In this document: piece after piece, positions 1-34,510 of the stretch
How the letters are laid out: every line of letters begins with the position of its first letter
How positions within the stretch are numbered: position 1 is the stretch's first letter
Origin: Desulfobacterales bacterium
GTDB lineage: Bacteria > Desulfobacterota > Desulfobacteria > Desulfobacterales > JAFDHS01
Reading direction: 5' to 3'
Assembly (NCBI GenBank): GCA_030589165.1
Contig: JAUUWG010000005.1
Span: forward strand, 1 to 34,510
DNA: 34,510 bases
Notes under the pieces: generated by a model
The model's input: the letters and a program-made list of their open reading frames with translations, nothing else
What the model was told of the DNA's origin: nothing
Databases searched by the model: none
Translations under genes and position numbers: made by a program

Positions 1-447
1 GTTTTTGAAAGAAAAAAGCGCCCTTCCCTGTTGGGCAGTGATGCTTTTATCCGTCGGATCCGGGATAAATTTTATCTCCAAAAGGACCATCAAGAGATTC
101 CGTCATCATCGGTTCTGGCGCCGGATATAAAAAGGATAAAGGATGTCGTTTGCAGACATTATAGGGTAAATGAATCTGTATTGGATAAATCCCAACGCGG
201 CGTATCCAATGAGCCGAGAAACGTGGCGATTTATTTGGCCAGGCAATTAAGGGGCGATGCGTTGGAGACGATCGGCAGAGAATTTGGATTGAAGCGATTC
301 AGCTCAACCAGCAGTGCCGTTCAAAGAGTCAAAAAACAAATCGTTAAGAACCGGAATTTCAGGGAAAGGATCGAAAAGATCAGACTGGAAATAACTAAAG
401 GGCATGGGCTTGGGACTTGCCTTGACTTCAATAATTTGAAGGTGTAG
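1..447 (+). pseudogene. REP-associated/Y1-type transposase C-terminal part, 5' end outside window; DnaA-like C-terminal helical domain
   Basis: Frame is open from base 1 (VFERKKRPSLLGSDAF...), so the gene runs off the left edge; motif NVAIYLARQLRGDALETIGREFGLKRFSSTSSAVQRVKKQI resembles the DnaA-C-like tail of RAYT proteins. Edge truncation, not necessarily a true pseudogene. Confidence 0.65.
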
Positions 448-487
448 GCTCACCCTTAAGACGTGTGCCGTGCCCGGCACACAACAA
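406..487 (+). repeat. 82-bp repeat copy A (transposase 3' end plus GTGTGCCG-TGCC-CGGCACAC hairpin)
   Basis: Nearly identical to 3048..3129; contains an 8-bp perfect stem GTGTGCCG/CGGCACAC. Confidence 0.85.
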
Positions 488-547
488 ATCAATTAAGCGG
501 AAAATAGGCCTGCGGCCTATTTTCCGCTTATCTCCGTCGTTATGTGC
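478..547 (+). other. attC-like integron recombination site 1
   Basis: R''-like CACACAAC, 14-bp perfect stem GCGGAAAATAGGCC-TGC-GGCCTATTTTCCGC, flanking TTAAGCGG/CCGCTTAT boxes, R'-like GTTATGTGC; 70 bp; cassette ORF begins about 22 bp later. Confidence 0.65.
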
Positions 548-568
548 TCACAAAATGAGGTAGAATAT

Positions 569-772
569 ATGAAACTTAAAGTAGTAATCCACGAAGCAGA
601 AGAAGGTGGCTATTGGGCAGAAGTTCCCGCTATACCAGGCTGTGCGACCCAAGGAGAAACCTTCGATGAGTTGCTTACCAATATCTATGAAGCTGTCGAG
701 GGTTGTTTATCCGTAGATATTCAAGACATCGAGATATCAGATAAGGACAAAGTAATGGAGATAGCAGTTTGA
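569..772 (+). CDS. hicB: HicB family antitoxin
   Basis: [47 protein letters not shown] is a typical HicB partial RNase H fold; ATG at 569 preferred over the ORF-track start at 542. Confidence 0.9.
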
Positions 773-975
773 AGGCAATTAGCGGAAAGCGATTTTGCAG
801 GCTGTTGAAATCGAAAGGGTGGGACTTAAAGCGTATCAGTGGAAGCCACCACATTTACACCAAAGCTGGAAGCACTGCCCGGATATCTGTTCCTGTTCAT
901 GGCAACACTCCATTGAAAATAGGGTTGCAAACGCATCTTATGAAGATAGCAGAAATTGATGAATCGGAATTATAA
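769..975 (+). CDS. hicA: HicA family mRNA interferase toxin
   Basis: [29 protein letters not shown]...[16 protein letters not shown]: HicA dsRBD-like fold with catalytic GSHH; TTG start overlapping the hicB stop. Confidence 0.9.
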
Positions 976-1085
976 ACCGCACATATAGGGATAGGGACGC
1001 CCATCACTGAGCGCCCCTCCCACAACACCGGACATACGGGTCGCGTATCCGGCGGTTCGGCTGATCAAAGCAGGCACAGATAAAA
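976..1085 (-). ncRNA. Probable group II intron 3' remnant (domain V/VI-like)
   Basis: Minus strand GAACCGCCGGATACGCGACCCGTATGTCCGGTGTTGTGGGAGGGGCGCTCAGTGATGGGCGTCCC: CCGGA..TACG-loop-CGTA-TG-TCCGG (stem, 2-nt bulge, stem) followed by a second G/C hairpin; no reverse transcriptase ORF present. Confidence 0.45.
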
Positions 1086-1110
1086 CAACATCCGCCCTGC
1101 CGGGCCTATA

Positions 1111-1248
1111 AAATAGGGTCAAGTCTACTTTTGACTGTTGATCGGTTTTACGTGTGCAGTAGTAGTTCTTTATACCATCAATTATGTTTTTGTGGATATT
1201 TTTCAGTATGATTTTATCCAAAGGTCAAAAGTAGACTTGACCCCTAAA
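1111..1248. repeat. 138-bp TIR-bounded repeat, left copy
   Basis: Starts AGGGTCAAGTCTACTTTTGAC and ends GTCAAAAGTAGACTTGACCCCT; direct copy at 2814..2951 with about 2 mismatches by eye. Confidence 0.9.
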
Positions 1249-1370
1249 GAGACCCCTAAAGACTAAAGAAAAATGCAATGCTTTTAAGAAGCAAGATATT
1301 TGAAAACCGAAATTTGTATTAATCTGACAGTAAATTATTACTGCGTGACAAAAATAACAAAGGAAAAAAA

Positions 1371-2789
1371 ATGAATAAATACAGGGTTGCTCTTGTTGAA
1401 GCTGTTTCGGATCTGACACATGTATACAGTCGAACCTGTTTACCACGCGTAGGGCTTGCTACTATAGCTTCAGTTCTTAATAAGAACGGTTATAAGTGCG
1501 ACTTATGGATAAAACCAATGACCGACTCGGAAAAAAAGAATCTGGCAAATTACGATCTTGTGGGTATTGGTTCATTATCAAACACTATTAATGAGGCTTA
1601 TAATCTGTCAGATTATTTAAGAAAAAAGGGAACAAAAGTTGTAATGGGCGGGCCTCATGTATCATTTATGCCTGAAGAAGCATTAAATCATTGTGATTAC
1701 GTTATTAAAGGTGAAGGTGATGAAACTTTTCTCTCATTGGTTAAAATACTTGAAAAGGGAGCAATTCCTAATGGACTTAAAAGTATTTCATATAAAAATA
1801 AAGACAACACTTTTCAGCACAATGAAATTCATGATGTTGTAAATTTTTCTGAAGTTCCTTCACCGGATTTTACCCTTTCTCCTCAGATTAACAATAATGA
1901 TATCCCACCAATAGTTGTTACATCCAGAGGTTGTCCCCACGACTGCTCATTTTGCAGTGTTACCCCACTTTTTGGAAGGAAATACAGGTTTAAATCCCAT
2001 GAACAGGTTATTGAGGAACTGCGCCCTATTCAACACAAAAGCGTCTGTTTTGGTGACGACAATTTTTGTGCTAACCCCAAACGTGCAAAATCGTTGATGC
2101 GGGAAATGATAAAAAGAGATGCTGTTCCGTTAAGATGGTCAGGTCAAATGTGTGTGAGTGCTGCATCAGACAATGAATTGCTTGAACTGATGGAAGAGAC
2201 AAGGTGCAGAATAGTGTATGTGGGAATTGAGTCAGTTGATCCTGAAACTCTAAATAGGTACGGTAAGGCACATACAGTGGATGTTGTAAAACAATGTGTT
2301 GAAAATCTTCATAAGCATAACATTGGCATACATGGCATGTTCGTAGTTGACAGCAAGGATAATCCGGATGCAGCAAAAAATATTGTCGATTATGCAATAG
2401 AAACGGACATAGATACAATTCAGGTTTTTTCCCTTACGCCATTTCCCGGAACAAGGGCGTATGAAGAAAACAGGGACATATTACTTCACAATCAATGGAC
2501 ACAATATGATGGCATGCATGTTGTTGTAAAACCAGAAAAATGCTCGGCATATACAATGCAAATGGCAATAGTAAACCAGATGAAAAGATTTTACAGTTTA
2601 AAGCGGATACTTACATCATACAGAAAAAAAAGGGGGTGGAGGGTTAAGTACCGTTTGGGAGGTAACCTGCTACTGAGAAAATGGATAAAGGAAAACTCAG
2701 AATATATTGAAAGCCTGAAAGAACACAGTGTGACAAATGGAAGTGTCAACATGTTTATGAAAAAAACTAAACGGGCATTAAACGGCTAA
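1371..2789 (+). CDS. B12-binding domain radical SAM protein
   Basis: N-terminal cobalamin-binding-like region (VGIGSLSNT..VVMGGPHVSFMPEEAL), CxxxCxxC motif CPHDCSFC, downstream SPASM-free radical SAM core. Confidence 0.88.
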   Translation: MNKYRVALVEAVSDLTHVYSRTCLPRVGLATIASVLNKNGYKCDLWIKPMTDSEKKNLANYDLVGIGSLSNTINEAYNLSDYLRKKGTKVVMGGPHVSFMPEEALNHCDYVIKGEGDETFLSLVKILEKGAIPNGLKSISYKNKDNTFQHNEIHDVVNFSEVPSPDFTLSPQINNNDIPPIVVTSRGCPHDCSFCSVTPLFGRKYRFKSHEQVIEELRPIQHKSVCFGDDNFCANPKRAKSLMREMIKRDAVPLRWSGQMCVSAASDNELLELMEETRCRIVYVGIESVDPETLNRYGKAHTVDVVKQCVENLHKHNIGIHGMFVVDSKDNPDAAKNIVDYAIETDIDTIQVFSLTPFPGTRAYEENRDILLHNQWTQYDGMHVVVKPEKCSAYTMQMAIVNQMKRFYSLKRILTSYRKKRGWRVKYRLGGNLLLRKWIKENSEYIESLKEHSVTNGSVNMFMKKTKRALNG

Positions 2790-2813
2790 AATATCAGTCC
2801 GTTGTAAAAAAAG

Positions 2814-2951
2814 AAATAGGGTCAAGTCTACTTTTGACTGTTGATCGGTTTTACGTGTGCAGTTGTAGTTCTTTATACCATCAATTATGTTGTTGTGGAT
2901 ATTTTTCAGTATGATTTTATCCAAAGGTCAAAAGTAGACTTGACCCCTAAA
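2814..2951. repeat. 138-bp TIR-bounded repeat, right copy
   Basis: Direct repeat of 1111..1248. Confidence 0.9.
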
Positions 2952-3047
2952 TTGACCCCCTCCGCCTCAGCGGAGCCACTGCCTTCCGAAGCACCGTCAC
3001 CGGATACCCCGTTGTGATAACACTATGCCCTTCGCCTCCATCCGGCT

Positions 3048-3129
3048 GGGCTTGGGACTTGCCTTGACTTCCATAATTGGAAAATGTAGGCTCACCCTTA
3101 AGACGTGTGCCGTGCCCGGCACACAACAA
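3048..3129 (+). repeat. 82-bp repeat copy B (transposase-end-like plus GTGTGCCG hairpin)
   Basis: Matches 406..487; here without the transposase gene upstream. Confidence 0.85.
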
Positions 3130-3188
3130 CCGGCTCAAGAGGGACGCGGCATAAAGCGCCGCGTCCCTCAGCCAAGAACTGTTGGGCC
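3120..3188 (+). other. attC-like integron recombination site 2
   Basis: CACACAAC...GGCTCAAGAGGGACGCGGC-ATAAAGC-GCCGCGTCCCTCAGCC...GTTGGGC (GTTRRRY consensus); 69 bp; antitoxin ATG begins 21 bp later. Confidence 0.65.
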
Positions 3189-3208: not shown

Positions 3209-3434
3209 ATGAAGTTAGAACAAATAGCCAAAGAAGTAATGAACCTAAGCCTCGAAGAAAGGGCAGAACTTGCCCAGCGACTTCTGGTCAGCTTGGACGA
3301 GCCCCCCCCCATTTGAGATCGAAAAATTATGGATGCAAGAGGCTGAACGTCGACTTCAAGAGTACCGGGAAGGTAAGGTCCAGGGTATACCAGCTGAAGA
3401 TGTATTTCGCCGGGCTATTAGTGAGATATCGTGA
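3209..3434 (+). pseudogene. Addiction-module antitoxin (TIGR02574-like), frameshifted in a C9 tract
   Basis: MKLEQIAKEVMNLSLEERAELAQRLLVSLDEP then stop; dropping one C gives ...PPPFEIEKLWMQEAERRLQEYREGKVQGIPAEDVFRRAISEIS*. Confidence 0.8.
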
Positions 3435-3538
3435 TAACTGAATCATTTCTCCCGGAGGCCGACGAGGAGTTTCGGGAAGCCGCGCGTTATTACGAGAGTC
3501 AACTACCCCTCCTGAATAGATTCAGGAGGGGTAGTTGA
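3431..3538 (+). pseudogene. RelE/ParE-type toxin, 5' fragment truncated by a palindrome
   Basis: GTG start overlapping the antitoxin stop; VITESFLPEADEEFREAARYYESQ then a non-homologous tail inside the palindrome. Confidence 0.7.
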
Positions 3539-3540
3539 CT
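3497..3540. repeat. 44-nt perfect palindrome followed by T-run (possible terminator or REP-like element)
   Basis: AGTCAACTACCCCTCCTGAAT-AG-ATTCAGGAGGGGTAGTTGACT then TTTTT. Confidence 0.9.
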
Positions 3541-3637
3541 TTTTCTGATTGTCATGAGTTATCTTTCCGTGTGTATTTCAAGTGTGGTTTCCGACTTTTC
3601 TCTTGTCCTTTTCCGCTGCAACGGCTATCTTCGTGCC

Positions 3638-4522: not shown

Positions 4523-4555
4523 CCGGCAGGCAGCCGGAATAGTCCTCATGGGTTG

Positions 4556-4643
4556 TTGTTTGCAGGCATTATATGATAAAAGAACCGGAATTGAGTAAAT
4601 CCCAACAGGGAAAGGATTGAGAAGTTCAGACGGGAAATAACTA
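4556..4643 (+). pseudogene. RAYT transposase 3' remnant with internal deletion
   Basis: GTTTGCAGGCATTATATGATAAAAGAACCGGAATTGAGTAAATCCCAAC joined to AGGGAAAGGATTGAGAAGTTCAGACGGGAAATAACTAA; matches 148..195 and 361..398 with the middle missing. Confidence 0.75.
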
Positions 4644-4660
4644 ATTTTGTTGATAGTTGT

Positions 4661-5723: not shown

Positions 5724-5912
5724 ATTAAGGGACTCGGCACAAATAAATTATCCCATTTAGCATCTCCTCTTCAGGCCATCTTTATTCGATACTCAATCAA
5801 ATCGTCCTCGAAATAGAACGACTATTCCTGTGGCAATTAGATTTCGGATCGAATAAATCTGACCTGAACATGAGCGCTATCTGGGACACTTTATTCGTGC
5901 CGAGTCCCTAAT
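5724..5912. repeat. MITE-like element with TIRs, self-complementary
   Basis: ATTAAGGGACTCGGCACAAATAAA... and ...TTTATTCGTGCCGAGTCCCTAAT; internal imperfect palindrome; related sequence at 34345..34510. Confidence 0.8.
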
Positions 5913-10715: not shown

Positions 10716-10739
10716 ACCCTAACCCGGATAAACCGGAAA

Positions 10740-10771
10740 AGTGAGCTAAAGTTTGAAGTGAGCTAAAGTTA
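10740..10771 (+). repeat. AGTGAGCTAAAGT tandem repeat, 2 units
   Basis: AGTGAGCTAAAGTTTGAAGTGAGCTAAAGTT, preceded by ACCCGGATAAACCGG. Confidence 0.8.
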
Positions 10772-10854
10772 ATGTGTCGCTTTGCTCCTTCTTTAAAAAA
10801 TACAGCCTGGGACGTGGGCCTGCAATACATTTTTCAAACAGGTTTTTTAAAGCT

Positions 10855-14171: not shown

Positions 14172-14321
14172 AAAAAGTGTGAAGTGACTAAAGTGAGCTA
14201 AAGTGCCTAAAGTTGAGGTATTTTGTCAATTTTATAAAAAAAGACGGAGCGAAGCGGCTCATTCACTTTAGCTCACTTTTAATTTCTTCGGTTTATCCGG
14301 GTCAGGAGAATAAAAAACAGT

Positions 14322-19559: not shown

Positions 19560-19574
19560 CAAACAACCAAAAAA

Positions 19575-19645
19575 AGTGAGCTAAAGTGAGCTAAAGTTTG
19601 AAGTGAGCTAAAGTTAAGGAGTCGCTTCGCTCCGTCTTTTTATAT
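19575..19645 (+). repeat. AGTGAGCTAAAGT repeats (3 units) plus GAGTCGCTTCGCTCCGTCTTTTT terminator-like segment
   Basis: Same module pattern as 10740..10790 and, inverted, 14230..14280. Confidence 0.75.
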
Positions 19646-19701
19646 AAGATTGATAGAATTCCTCAACCCCGGTTAAATAAGATGGGGCATTTAACGGGGT
19701 G

Positions 19702-19743
19702 AACTTTAGGCACTTTAGATCACTTTAGGCACTTTACACTTTT
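19702..19743 (-). repeat. ACTTTAGGCACTTTAGATCACTTTAGGCACTTT repeats, opposite orientation
   Basis: About 4 degenerate 12-13-mers. Confidence 0.75.
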
Positions 19744-19759
19744 TAAGTGAGGATAATCA

Positions 19760-22073: not shown

Positions 22074-22237
22074 AGAGCCTGTTTAAAAACTGATGAATCC
22101 GCTGCAAAACCGTGAGAGCGGTTCAAATTGTCGTAAATTTTCGGCAAATAGGCTTGCTATTCACCTCAAATTTGCAACAATTTGCCCTCGCTCTCACACT
22201 TTTTCACTTGGATTCTCTAATCTTTAAACGGGCTCTT
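22074..22237 (+). repeat. 164-bp palindromic MITE-like repeat, copy 1
   Basis: AGAGCCTGTTTAAAAACTGATGAATCCGC...TCTAATCTTTAAACGGGCTCT; inverted copy at 28659..28821. Confidence 0.92.
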
Positions 22238-22460
22238 AAGCACATCAATTAATAATATTTATTCTAACCTCTTGTTTTGATAAAATTACTTTTAACACTT
22301 TATTTTGTCAACAGCTTAAACGGTTTTCGTTAACACGTTATTAACAATTATTTATCAAAATCCTTGCATATAAGTTAAAACAAGTGTATCTGCCAAACTG
22401 TGTTTAAAATCAATAAATATCGCTAACCTGGGCAAGCTGTAACCCAAACAATATTTTTAA

Positions 22461-28489: not shown

Positions 28490-28658
28490 TCGTATCTTAT
28501 ATTCTAAAATTCGTGTATTTTATGTCAAAAAAATATGAATCGAAAAAAGTGTGAATCGAATTAAAAAATTATCCTATCATAACAAATAATTCAAGCAAGA
28601 GGAATTATACTCTTTTTTCAATTTTATTTGACGTTCGACTATTTTTTTCATAATCTTT

Positions 28659-28821
28659 AGAGCCTGTTTAAAAATTAGGGAATCCAAGTGAAAAAGTGTG
28701 AAAGCGAGGGCAAATTGTTGCAAATTTGAGGTGAATAGCAAGCCTATTTGCCGAAAATTTACGACAATTTGAACCGCTCTCACGGTTTTGCAGCGAATTC
28801 ATCAGTTTTTAAACAGGCTCT
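28659..28821 (-). repeat. 164-bp palindromic MITE-like repeat, copy 2 (inverted relative to copy 1)
   Basis: Reverse complement differs from 22074..22237 at about 5 positions by eye. Confidence 0.92.
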
Positions 28822-30133: not shown

Positions 30134-31193
30134 AATGGGCCAAATTATGAATTTTTTATATATCGACATTTTGATCTGGATCGGGATTCTTTTTTGTATT
30201 TCCCAATCGGCTATCTTTTCCGGTCTCAATCTTGCCTTTTTCAGCGTCAGCCGGCTTCGTCTGGAAATAGAAGCCAGAAACAACAATATGGCTGCCATCA
30301 AGGTCCTCAATATGAGAACCGATTCAAATTTTCTTCTGACCACCGTTCTCTGGGGCAATGTTGGTGTAAATGTTTTATTGGCGCTTTTATCAAATTCCGT
30401 GATGACCGGGATAAGCGCATTTATATTTTCAACATTTATTATTACCTTTTTAGGTGAAATTATTCCTCAAGCCTATTTCTCACGCCATGCACTTCGAATC
30501 GCTTCAGGTTTATCACCCTTTATAAGGATTTATCAGATCATATTATTCCCTGTTGCAAAGCCTTCGGCAAAATTGTTGGACCTGTGGCTGGGAAAAGAAA
30601 GTATTGAGTATTTCAAAGAAAAGAGTCTGAAACACTTAATTCAAAAACATGTTGAAGATGCAGAAGATATCGATCATGTGGAAGGAACCGGAGCGATCAA
30701 TTTCCTTGCTATAGATGACCTGATGGTAGGCCAGGAAGGGGAACCGATAGATCCGGACAGCATTATTTCATTACCCTTTCGTAACGGCAAACCCGTATTC
30801 CCCAAATTAAAAAAATCGGTTGATGACGCGTTTTTGAAAAAAATACACAAATCAAAAAAAAAGTGGATCATCATTACGGATAAAAAAAATTTTCCACGCG
30901 TGACAATGGATTCGGACGGTTTTTTAAGAAGCGCTTTGCTTGGGCCTGGGATTCCAAACCCTCATGATTTTTGTCATTCTCCGATTATTGTTTTAAATTC
31001 ATCAACTCCCCTTGGGAAAATTCTCAAACAGTTGGAATCCATGTATCCACCAGATGATGTAATCCATAAGGATATTATTCTGTTATGGGGAGATCAAAAG
31101 CGTATCATTACCGGGGCCGATATTTTGGGAAGATTGCTGCGTGGAATAAGCCGAAAAGTAAAACCGAAAAGAGAGCTGACCCAAACCCGATAA
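30126..31193 (+). CDS. DUF21/CNNM transmembrane domain protein
   Basis: SAIFSGLNLAFFSVSRLRLEIEARNNNMAAIKVLNMRTDSNFLLTTVLWGNVGVNVLLALLSNS, FLGEIIPQAYFSRHALRIAS; start overlaps the upstream stop. Confidence 0.85.
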   Translation: MNEMGQIMNFLYIDILIWIGILFCISQSAIFSGLNLAFFSVSRLRLEIEARNNNMAAIKVLNMRTDSNFLLTTVLWGNVGVNVLLALLSNSVMTGISAFIFSTFIITFLGEIIPQAYFSRHALRIASGLSPFIRIYQIILFPVAKPSAKLLDLWLGKESIEYFKEKSLKHLIQKHVEDAEDIDHVEGTGAINFLAIDDLMVGQEGEPIDPDSIISLPFRNGKPVFPKLKKSVDDAFLKKIHKSKKKWIIITDKKNFPRVTMDSDGFLRSALLGPGIPNPHDFCHSPIIVLNSSTPLGKILKQLESMYPPDDVIHKDIILLWGDQKRIITGADILGRLLRGISRKVKPKRELTQTR

Positions 31194-31237
31194 ACCGGAA
31201 AAGTGAGCTAAAGTTTGAAATGTCAGCCAGCCAGTAG

Positions 31238-34344: not shown

Positions 34345-34510
34345 GTTAGGAACGGAGATTAAATAACTTACCAATATTCCATCTCATCTTCAGGTCGCCT
34401 TTGCCCGATCCTCAATCAGATAATCCTCAAAATAGAGTAACTATTCCTGCGGTTATCTGATTTCGGATCGAACAAATCCGACCTAAATCTGAACGTAATA
34501 ATGTGCAATT
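34345..34510. repeat. Diverged copy of the 5.7-kb MITE-like element, cut by window end
   Basis: CATCTCATCTTCAGGTCGCC..CGATCCTCAATCAGATAATCCTCAAAATAGAGTAACTATTCCTGCGG..GATTTCGGATCGAACAAATCCGACCT aligns with 5760..5875. Confidence 0.75.

Follow-up and report, generated by a model that had tools for sequence, protein, structure and literature searches.

How did a single AT-rich enzyme gene come to lie between two nearly identical direct repeats? This question is raised by one end of a 34,510-nucleotide stretch of DNA (the window), positions 1 to 34,510 of contig JAUUWG010000005.1 in the Desulfobacterales assembly GCA_030589165.1, a metagenome-assembled genome (MAG) of 2.17 Mb that is 65% complete and divided into 247 contigs. 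A reading of the sequence alone had suggested a composite mobilisation unit of MITE-like repeats with a radical SAM cargo or, alternatively, recent recombination between the repeats. The components of the bracketed unit are as follows.

1111..1248, plus strand: miniature element copy 1, a dimer of terminal inverted repeats (TIRs), homology extending with 2 mismatches to 1256
1116..1135, plus strand: left arm of copy 1, the outermost left arm of the unit
1224..1243, minus strand: right arm of copy 1
1371..2789, plus strand: B12-binding radical SAM gene, 472 aa, PF04055 and PF02310, the sole gene in the unit
2814..2951, plus strand, oriented as copy 1: miniature element copy 2 (TIR dimer), homology extending to 2959
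2819..2838, plus strand: left arm of copy 2
2927..2946, minus strand: right arm of copy 2, the outermost right arm of the unit

The repeats lie exactly where the sequence-only reading had placed them, and its estimate of about two differences is precise: copies 1 and 2 are identical at 136 of 138 positions (98.6%), with mismatches at 1161 (A/T) and 1189 (T/G), and 8 bp beyond the 138 extend the match to 146 bp at 97%. The inverse ends it described are 20-bp inverted arms, GGGTCAAGTCTACTTTTGAC and its reverse complement, which bound both copies; in the window the left arms read AGGGTCAA. Each copy folds into one long hairpin (DNA z-score −6.3; 0 of 200 shuffles equally stable), and the 19-mer arm occurs four times in the window, where 0.03 occurrences would be expected. 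For two random insertions to fall within 1703 bp of each other, the chance is about 0.0016. The genome search that had been proposed for the 138-bp element returned only these two copies in the assembled 2.17 Mb, the remaining matches being single arms of 26–34 bp; given that the MAG is 65% complete and in 247 contigs, the copy number is a lower bound. Target site duplication was absent from the outer flanks of the unit (1101–1110 compared with 2952–2965), and none is expected from IS200/IS605-type movement or from recombination. A promoter or terminator role for the repeats was considered and dropped, as a consensus scan yielded nothing usable.

With repeats of this kind, an artefact has to be weighed, namely that one real element was duplicated, or its junctions created, by the assembly or by tandem duplication. 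The MAG is fragmented and incomplete, pieces of broken mobile elements make up much of the region, and a short-read assembly could in principle chimerise at 146-bp repeats. Against this stand the two internal differences, a longest identical run of 59 bp and distinct flanking bases on all four sides, which make an assembly or local rearrangement artefact quite improbable.

A MITE is taken here to be a non-coding element of 70–300 bp with terminal inverted repeats in common with an autonomous element. The window repeats, at 138 bp with 20-bp TIRs, carry arms of the kind found around Y1 transposase genes in relatives (L014, L016, L026, L035, L195). Such arms are present in 31 of 146 genomes of the order (E ≤ 0.001), and in 24 by an exact degenerate pattern, with a reversed control giving 0. 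They are arranged as singles, as inverted dimers of ~60–70 or ~140–160 bp, and as pairs ~1.0–1.4 kb apart. In L014, L016, L026/L195 and L035, these pairs of ~1–1.4 kb, their arms likewise inverted, enclose a protein of 325–331 aa with an IS200-like Y1_Tnp domain and a C-terminal Bac_DnaA_C domain (Pfam); two of these proteins match NCBIfam REP_Tyr_transpos just under its cutoff. Judged by sequence, the 138-bp repeats are MITEs, each a dimer of the repeats that end elements with a RAYT/TIRYT-type HUH transposase. The earlier label 'MITE-like' is thereby borne out, the arms being those at the ends of an element with a tyrosine (HUH/Y1) transposase. In the relative G069, two direct arm–transposase–arm elements of 1063 bp (L195 1397–2459 and 6712–7774) lie 4.25 kb apart with 99.2% identity; the pair is sharply bounded, and the bases directly outside TAAAAGGGG...CCCCTT differ between the copies. 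Near-identical full elements of this sort are evidence that the RAYT/TIRYT class can copy itself. The full 138-bp element is absent from 145 relatives, its 22-base core pattern is absent from a collection of genomes from 84,980 species, and inspection of the arm sites in the 146 genomes of the order revealed no second MITE–cargo pair. Two further ideas about the arms were set aside: a preference for GGGGTC as target (9 of 67 outer flanks) and a viral origin (viral contigs lack paired arms).

The window itself holds remnants of a cognate transposase, which, together with the enclosing intron and cassette-like setting described below, go beyond what the sequence-only reading had seen.

1..399, plus strand: C-terminal part (Bac_DnaA_C) of a RAYT/TIRYT transposase, the N-terminus lying off the contig
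4551..4644, plus strand: decayed transposase 3' fragment, 80–90% identical to 141–196 and 360–398

A transposase copy in a sister species has 91–92% DNA identity to the 1–399 fragment and is directly followed by GGTCAAAAGTAGACTTGACC, an exact arm of the 138-bp elements. Elsewhere in the genome of the window, a further copy (G000 C61 1–921, L201), 93% identical in the common part and followed by a degenerate arm, is the best candidate for a cognate transposase that the assembly offers, 35% of the genome being unseen. Its N-terminus is off the contig, and it reads NHYY where relatives have NHYH. Since a histidine is lost by this replacement, the HUH motif is broken, and the protein, with HYY for HYH, is probably inactive, as judged from its residues.

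These features place the repeats close to several described families. RAYT-like genes flanked by long TIRs, which may also be dispersed as dimers, are known as TIRtron or TIRYT (PMC3733652), and a DnaA-like domain is assigned to TnpA_REP subclass 2.1 (PMC6006769). The present family shares with TIRtron/TIRYT (RAYT group 1) the same transposase domains and long inverted flanking arms, as well as the scattering of arms as singles and inverted dimers. The combination of HUH/Y1, a DnaA-type C-terminal domain and inverted repeats is seen in relatives, with the C-terminal part in the window. The arm start GGGGTCAA agrees with 7 of 8 bases of the published GGGGWSAS, the last base being A, and the arm GGGGTCAAG is one base off the same consensus. 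What differs is that two direct dimers here bracket a cargo gene, whereas the TIRtron/TIRYT descriptions in the available portions of PMC3733652 and PMC6006769 mention no cargo. REPINs are similar in having two palindromic inverted arms that form a long hairpin and in being RAYT-linked, but they occur in many copies (PMC3116915), compared with two here. Moreover, the GTAG tag of REPINs lies outside the palindrome, whereas the corresponding G(T/C/G/A)AG sits within the loop of the arm.

Several other repeats were seen in the window. Inverted repeats of 167 bp at 22074–22240 and 28655–28821, 96% complementary and 6.4 kb apart, enclose transketolase, another radical SAM gene and mtnA, and are a second miniature-element candidate. 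A hairpin element, AGGGACTCGGCAC...GTGCCGAGTCCCT, is present at 5728–5909 and 34371–34495 (copies 76% similar), and AGTGAGCTAAAGT repeats of another family are dispersed between genes (10718–10794, 14172–14285, 19563–19744 and 31180–31222).

The unit, 1.85 kb long, lies inside the remains of a group II intron, itself seated in a cassette-like region.

405..482, minus strand: 5' fragment of another intron of this family (second copy), truncated where the transposase 3' end begins
483..550, strand not assigned: second attC-like hairpin, GCACATAAC ... GTTATGTGC once the intron is removed
569..772, plus strand: HicB-like antitoxin (PF15919)
769..975, plus strand: HicA toxin (PF07927), the cassette ahead of the intron-occupied attC-like site
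985–3124, minus strand: relict ORF-less group II intron, split by the unit
985..1110, minus strand: intron 3' part with domain V/VI (Rfam Intron_gpII at 1057–985, 31.9 bits, gathering score 40)
2960..3124, minus strand: intron 5' part, beginning GTGTGCCGGGCAC at 3124 and ending against the unit at 2960
3125..3186, strand not assigned: attC-like hairpin forming the 5' exon of the intron, its end TTGTT abutting the intron and GTTGGGC at the far end

Group II introns begin with GUGYG, end with AY and contain a domain V; the relict has GTGTG at 3124, a CCCTAT end at 985 and a domain V at 31.9 bits, below the gathering score. Its 5' part (3124–2960) matches 27 of 146 genomes of the order, and in several relatives both parts lie within one ORF-less intron of ~690–830 nt, the window parts being collinear with relatives of ~690–715 nt; the full-length relatives pass the Rfam group II models (RF02001/RF01998). 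The 5' exon of each intron copy forms a hairpin whose last bases are TTGTT or similar, and that at 3125–3186 has a folding energy of −33.7 compared with −20.9 for shuffles. Its attC-like site carries ACATAAC with the GTTGGGC, to be set against the attC boxes RYYYAAC/GTTRRRY. Group IIC-attC introns insert at TTGT/T in the bottom strands of attC sites, opposite to the cassettes (PMC7923331). The window intron shares with them the attC-like hairpin, the position after TTGTT and the strand opposite the cassettes, lying on the minus strand antisense to the plus-strand HicBA pair; it differs in that its copies are ORF-less and ~700 nt long and in that the window copy is the broken host of a bracketed gene. 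By site and orientation, the intron agrees with the group IIC-attC type. Integron integrase is represented in the own genome by IntI fragments only, the best with two stops and 109.7 bits (cutoff 265), and by matches above the family cutoff in the relatives G050, G022 and G058. Rfam microRNA and STnc400 matches near the hairpins did not reach the gathering score and were attributed to chance resemblance between palindromes. Beyond the intron, an interrupted antitoxin-like ORF (3209–3316, by eye) lies upstream of an apparent RelE-like toxin gene remnant (3431–3500, named by eye), in which a palindrome with 22-bp arms is found (3495–3542).

Other copies of this intron are damaged as well. The fragment at 482–405 ends against the transposase fragment of the window, and in a third copy of the same genome (C60) a single arm interrupts the sequence; encounters between these elements and this intron have thus recurred in the genome. 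Another copy, C112, is likewise internally deleted. Three intron copies of this genome (window 399–482 and 2960–3124; L082 1036–1209) are interrupted by an arm or a transposase end of RAYT type, an association that looks more frequent than chance would give.

The boundaries between unit and intron bear most directly on how the package arose. Intron homology reaches ~1108–1110 on one side and 2960 on the other; between the latter point and the strict end of copy 2 there is only TTGACCCC. The outer gaps to the intron are thus 0 and ≤8 bp, as against inner gaps of 122 and 24 bp between the elements and the gene. Junctions so tight speak against a gene already in place that was flanked by two MITEs inserting independently. 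For two separate insertions, the second perhaps by a short-range hop, to have flanked a gene already in the intron, the gene must have reached the intron unaccompanied by the elements, and both of these must then have landed exactly at the gene/intron junctions. Near-identical neighbours are known in the family, as the G069 pair attests, and single arms do lie in or beside other intron remnants of the genome (window 399/405, L082 1173–1190). With these points in its favour, the two-insertion sequence is still considered unlikely.

The flush junctions favour instead the arrival of the whole unit, or of a circle of MITE plus gene at a resident MITE. About 400 nt of intron between its two window parts are missing, and the unit stands in their place; the event was therefore not a clean insertion, and a separate deletion would best explain the loss.

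The cargo itself conforms to the sequence-only reading on two points. The radical SAM gene is the only credible gene between copies 1 and 2, and it is AT-richer than its surroundings (GC 0.377 and GC3 0.317, compared with a GC3 of 0.44–0.58 in sixteen other genes measured in the window). Its expression probably relies on the 122-bp leader of its own, and copy 2 would serve as a 3' hairpin. Its product resembles HpnJ/BchE-like B12-binding radical SAM enzymes in domain order and in partial profile matches, but it lies far under every NCBIfam equivalog cutoff (the best, HpnJ, gives 127 bits where 578 are required) and belongs to a separate clade of Desulfobacterales and a few other phyla. Orthologues occur in 8 of 146 relatives of the order, the window genome counted, with 64–82% identity when its own copy is excluded, and the next-best matches in the order are at ~34%. 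The gene is absent from a same-genus genome that is 80% complete. A scan of named genomes, from which a tree was made, adds further Desulfobacterales and single MAGs of Phycisphaerae, Nitrospiraceae and Syntrophaceae. In comparison with G082, the radical SAM protein is 82–83% identical, as opposed to 68% for the housekeeping transketolase and 71% for MtnA. In the nearest relative (L115 4645–7971, 85%), the gene lies between genes that by eye resemble cobU and a cobalamin adenosyltransferase, neighbours that would suit a B12 enzyme.

Arms were found at none of the 17 orthologue loci inspected, and direct repeats around the gene at none of the 15 loci with enough flank; the spread of the gene is therefore independent of this element. 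The homology of the orthologues to the window ends ~12 nt ahead of the start codon, and their neighbourhoods differ from one another and from that of the window. The gene thus seems to move between genomes singly, by means other than this element. The sequence-only reading had held that synteny in relatives without the repeats would speak against a mobilisation unit; only half of this applies, in that the orthologues lack repeats, yet their neighbourhoods are syntenic neither with the window nor mutually. Four other explanations of the gene's position were set aside. An apparent span common to L115 and L116, which would have meant conserved synteny in the nearest relatives, is tblastx noise, the gene alone being in common. 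Were the gene itself an integron cassette, an attC-like hairpin should follow it, yet only 24 bp lie between its stop and copy 2 and they hold no such hairpin. As the normal domain IV cargo of the intron, it would conflict with full relatives that are ORF-less at ~700 nt and with the missing ~400-nt core of the window copy. As for plasmid copies, just distant radical SAM proteins with 25–31% identity were among the matches listed.

Near-identical bounding copies, a cargo and junctions at the outer ends are all present, as in a composite unit. No second site was found in the 84,980-species collection (by the 22-base core pattern) or in the 145 relatives (by the full element), and no empty site was found. 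The closest parallels are TIME-COMP, IMU and MITESen1, in which a gene likewise lies between two near-identical MITEs; these are Tn3-derived with 5-bp duplications, whereas the parent here is an HUH/Y1 element, no duplication is seen and the cargo is an enzyme of metabolic type (PMC13367494). For MITESen1, direct MITE-bounded cargo has been attributed to the integration of a circle at a resident MITE (PMC13367494).

In the account to which we lean, with modest confidence, two direct TIRYT/RAYT MITEs bracket a horizontally moving gene, and the package took the place of the central part of a relict IIC-attC-type intron through insertion of an element followed by integration of a circle. A miniature element would first have inserted into the group II intron; a circle carrying one miniature element and the gene would then have integrated at the resident element by homologous recombination, giving rise to the direct repeats. 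This route is preferred because it has been proposed for direct MITESen1 units and needs no active transposase. Recombination between repeats, the second suggestion of the sequence-only reading, is accordingly retained as a good candidate with a published precedent, one that we infer rather than observe. No empty site, single-MITE intron at the same position or second cargo pair was found.

A less likely alternative is true composite transposition, in which a transposase supplied in trans would have recognised the outermost arm on either side (1116, 2946) and moved the ~1.84-kb package whole in one step. This is possible because these arms have the layout of a full element: they are intact, correctly oriented and inverted as in arm–transposase–arm elements, and in relatives, 1.06-kb full elements that share this layout do move. 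It is made doubtful by the want of a second location and of other cargo, by the target deletion and by the degenerate transposase. With equally low probability, the locus might represent an HUH/Y1 (TIRYT) composite unit in which two dimers mobilise a gene in single-strand fashion, with decaying integron-associated introns as landing places. Of the composite mobilisation unit first suggested, the outer junctions, flush or within 8 bp, fit an arrival as a unit or via a resident MITE; because there is no other cargo pair and the orthologues lack repeats, a mobilisation unit with radical SAM cargo is read from one locus. The circle reading likewise comes from one locus in one MAG. The gene looks like one relocated with or through the miniature elements, which would make it mobile.

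MITE-bounded cargo is already known, namely for Tn3-derived elements; what differs at this one locus is the TIRYT-type parent element, and relocation of a gene by miniature elements looks unusual for the RAYT/TIRYT transposase family. The near-identical pair of full elements in G069 bears on whether this class is mobile at all. For the locus, the reading accounts for a lone AT-rich enzyme gene inside a broken intron. If RAYT/TIRYT miniatures do as their Tn3-derived counterparts, a role in moving genes would fall to a transposase family that is abundant and, as a rule, 'domesticated'.
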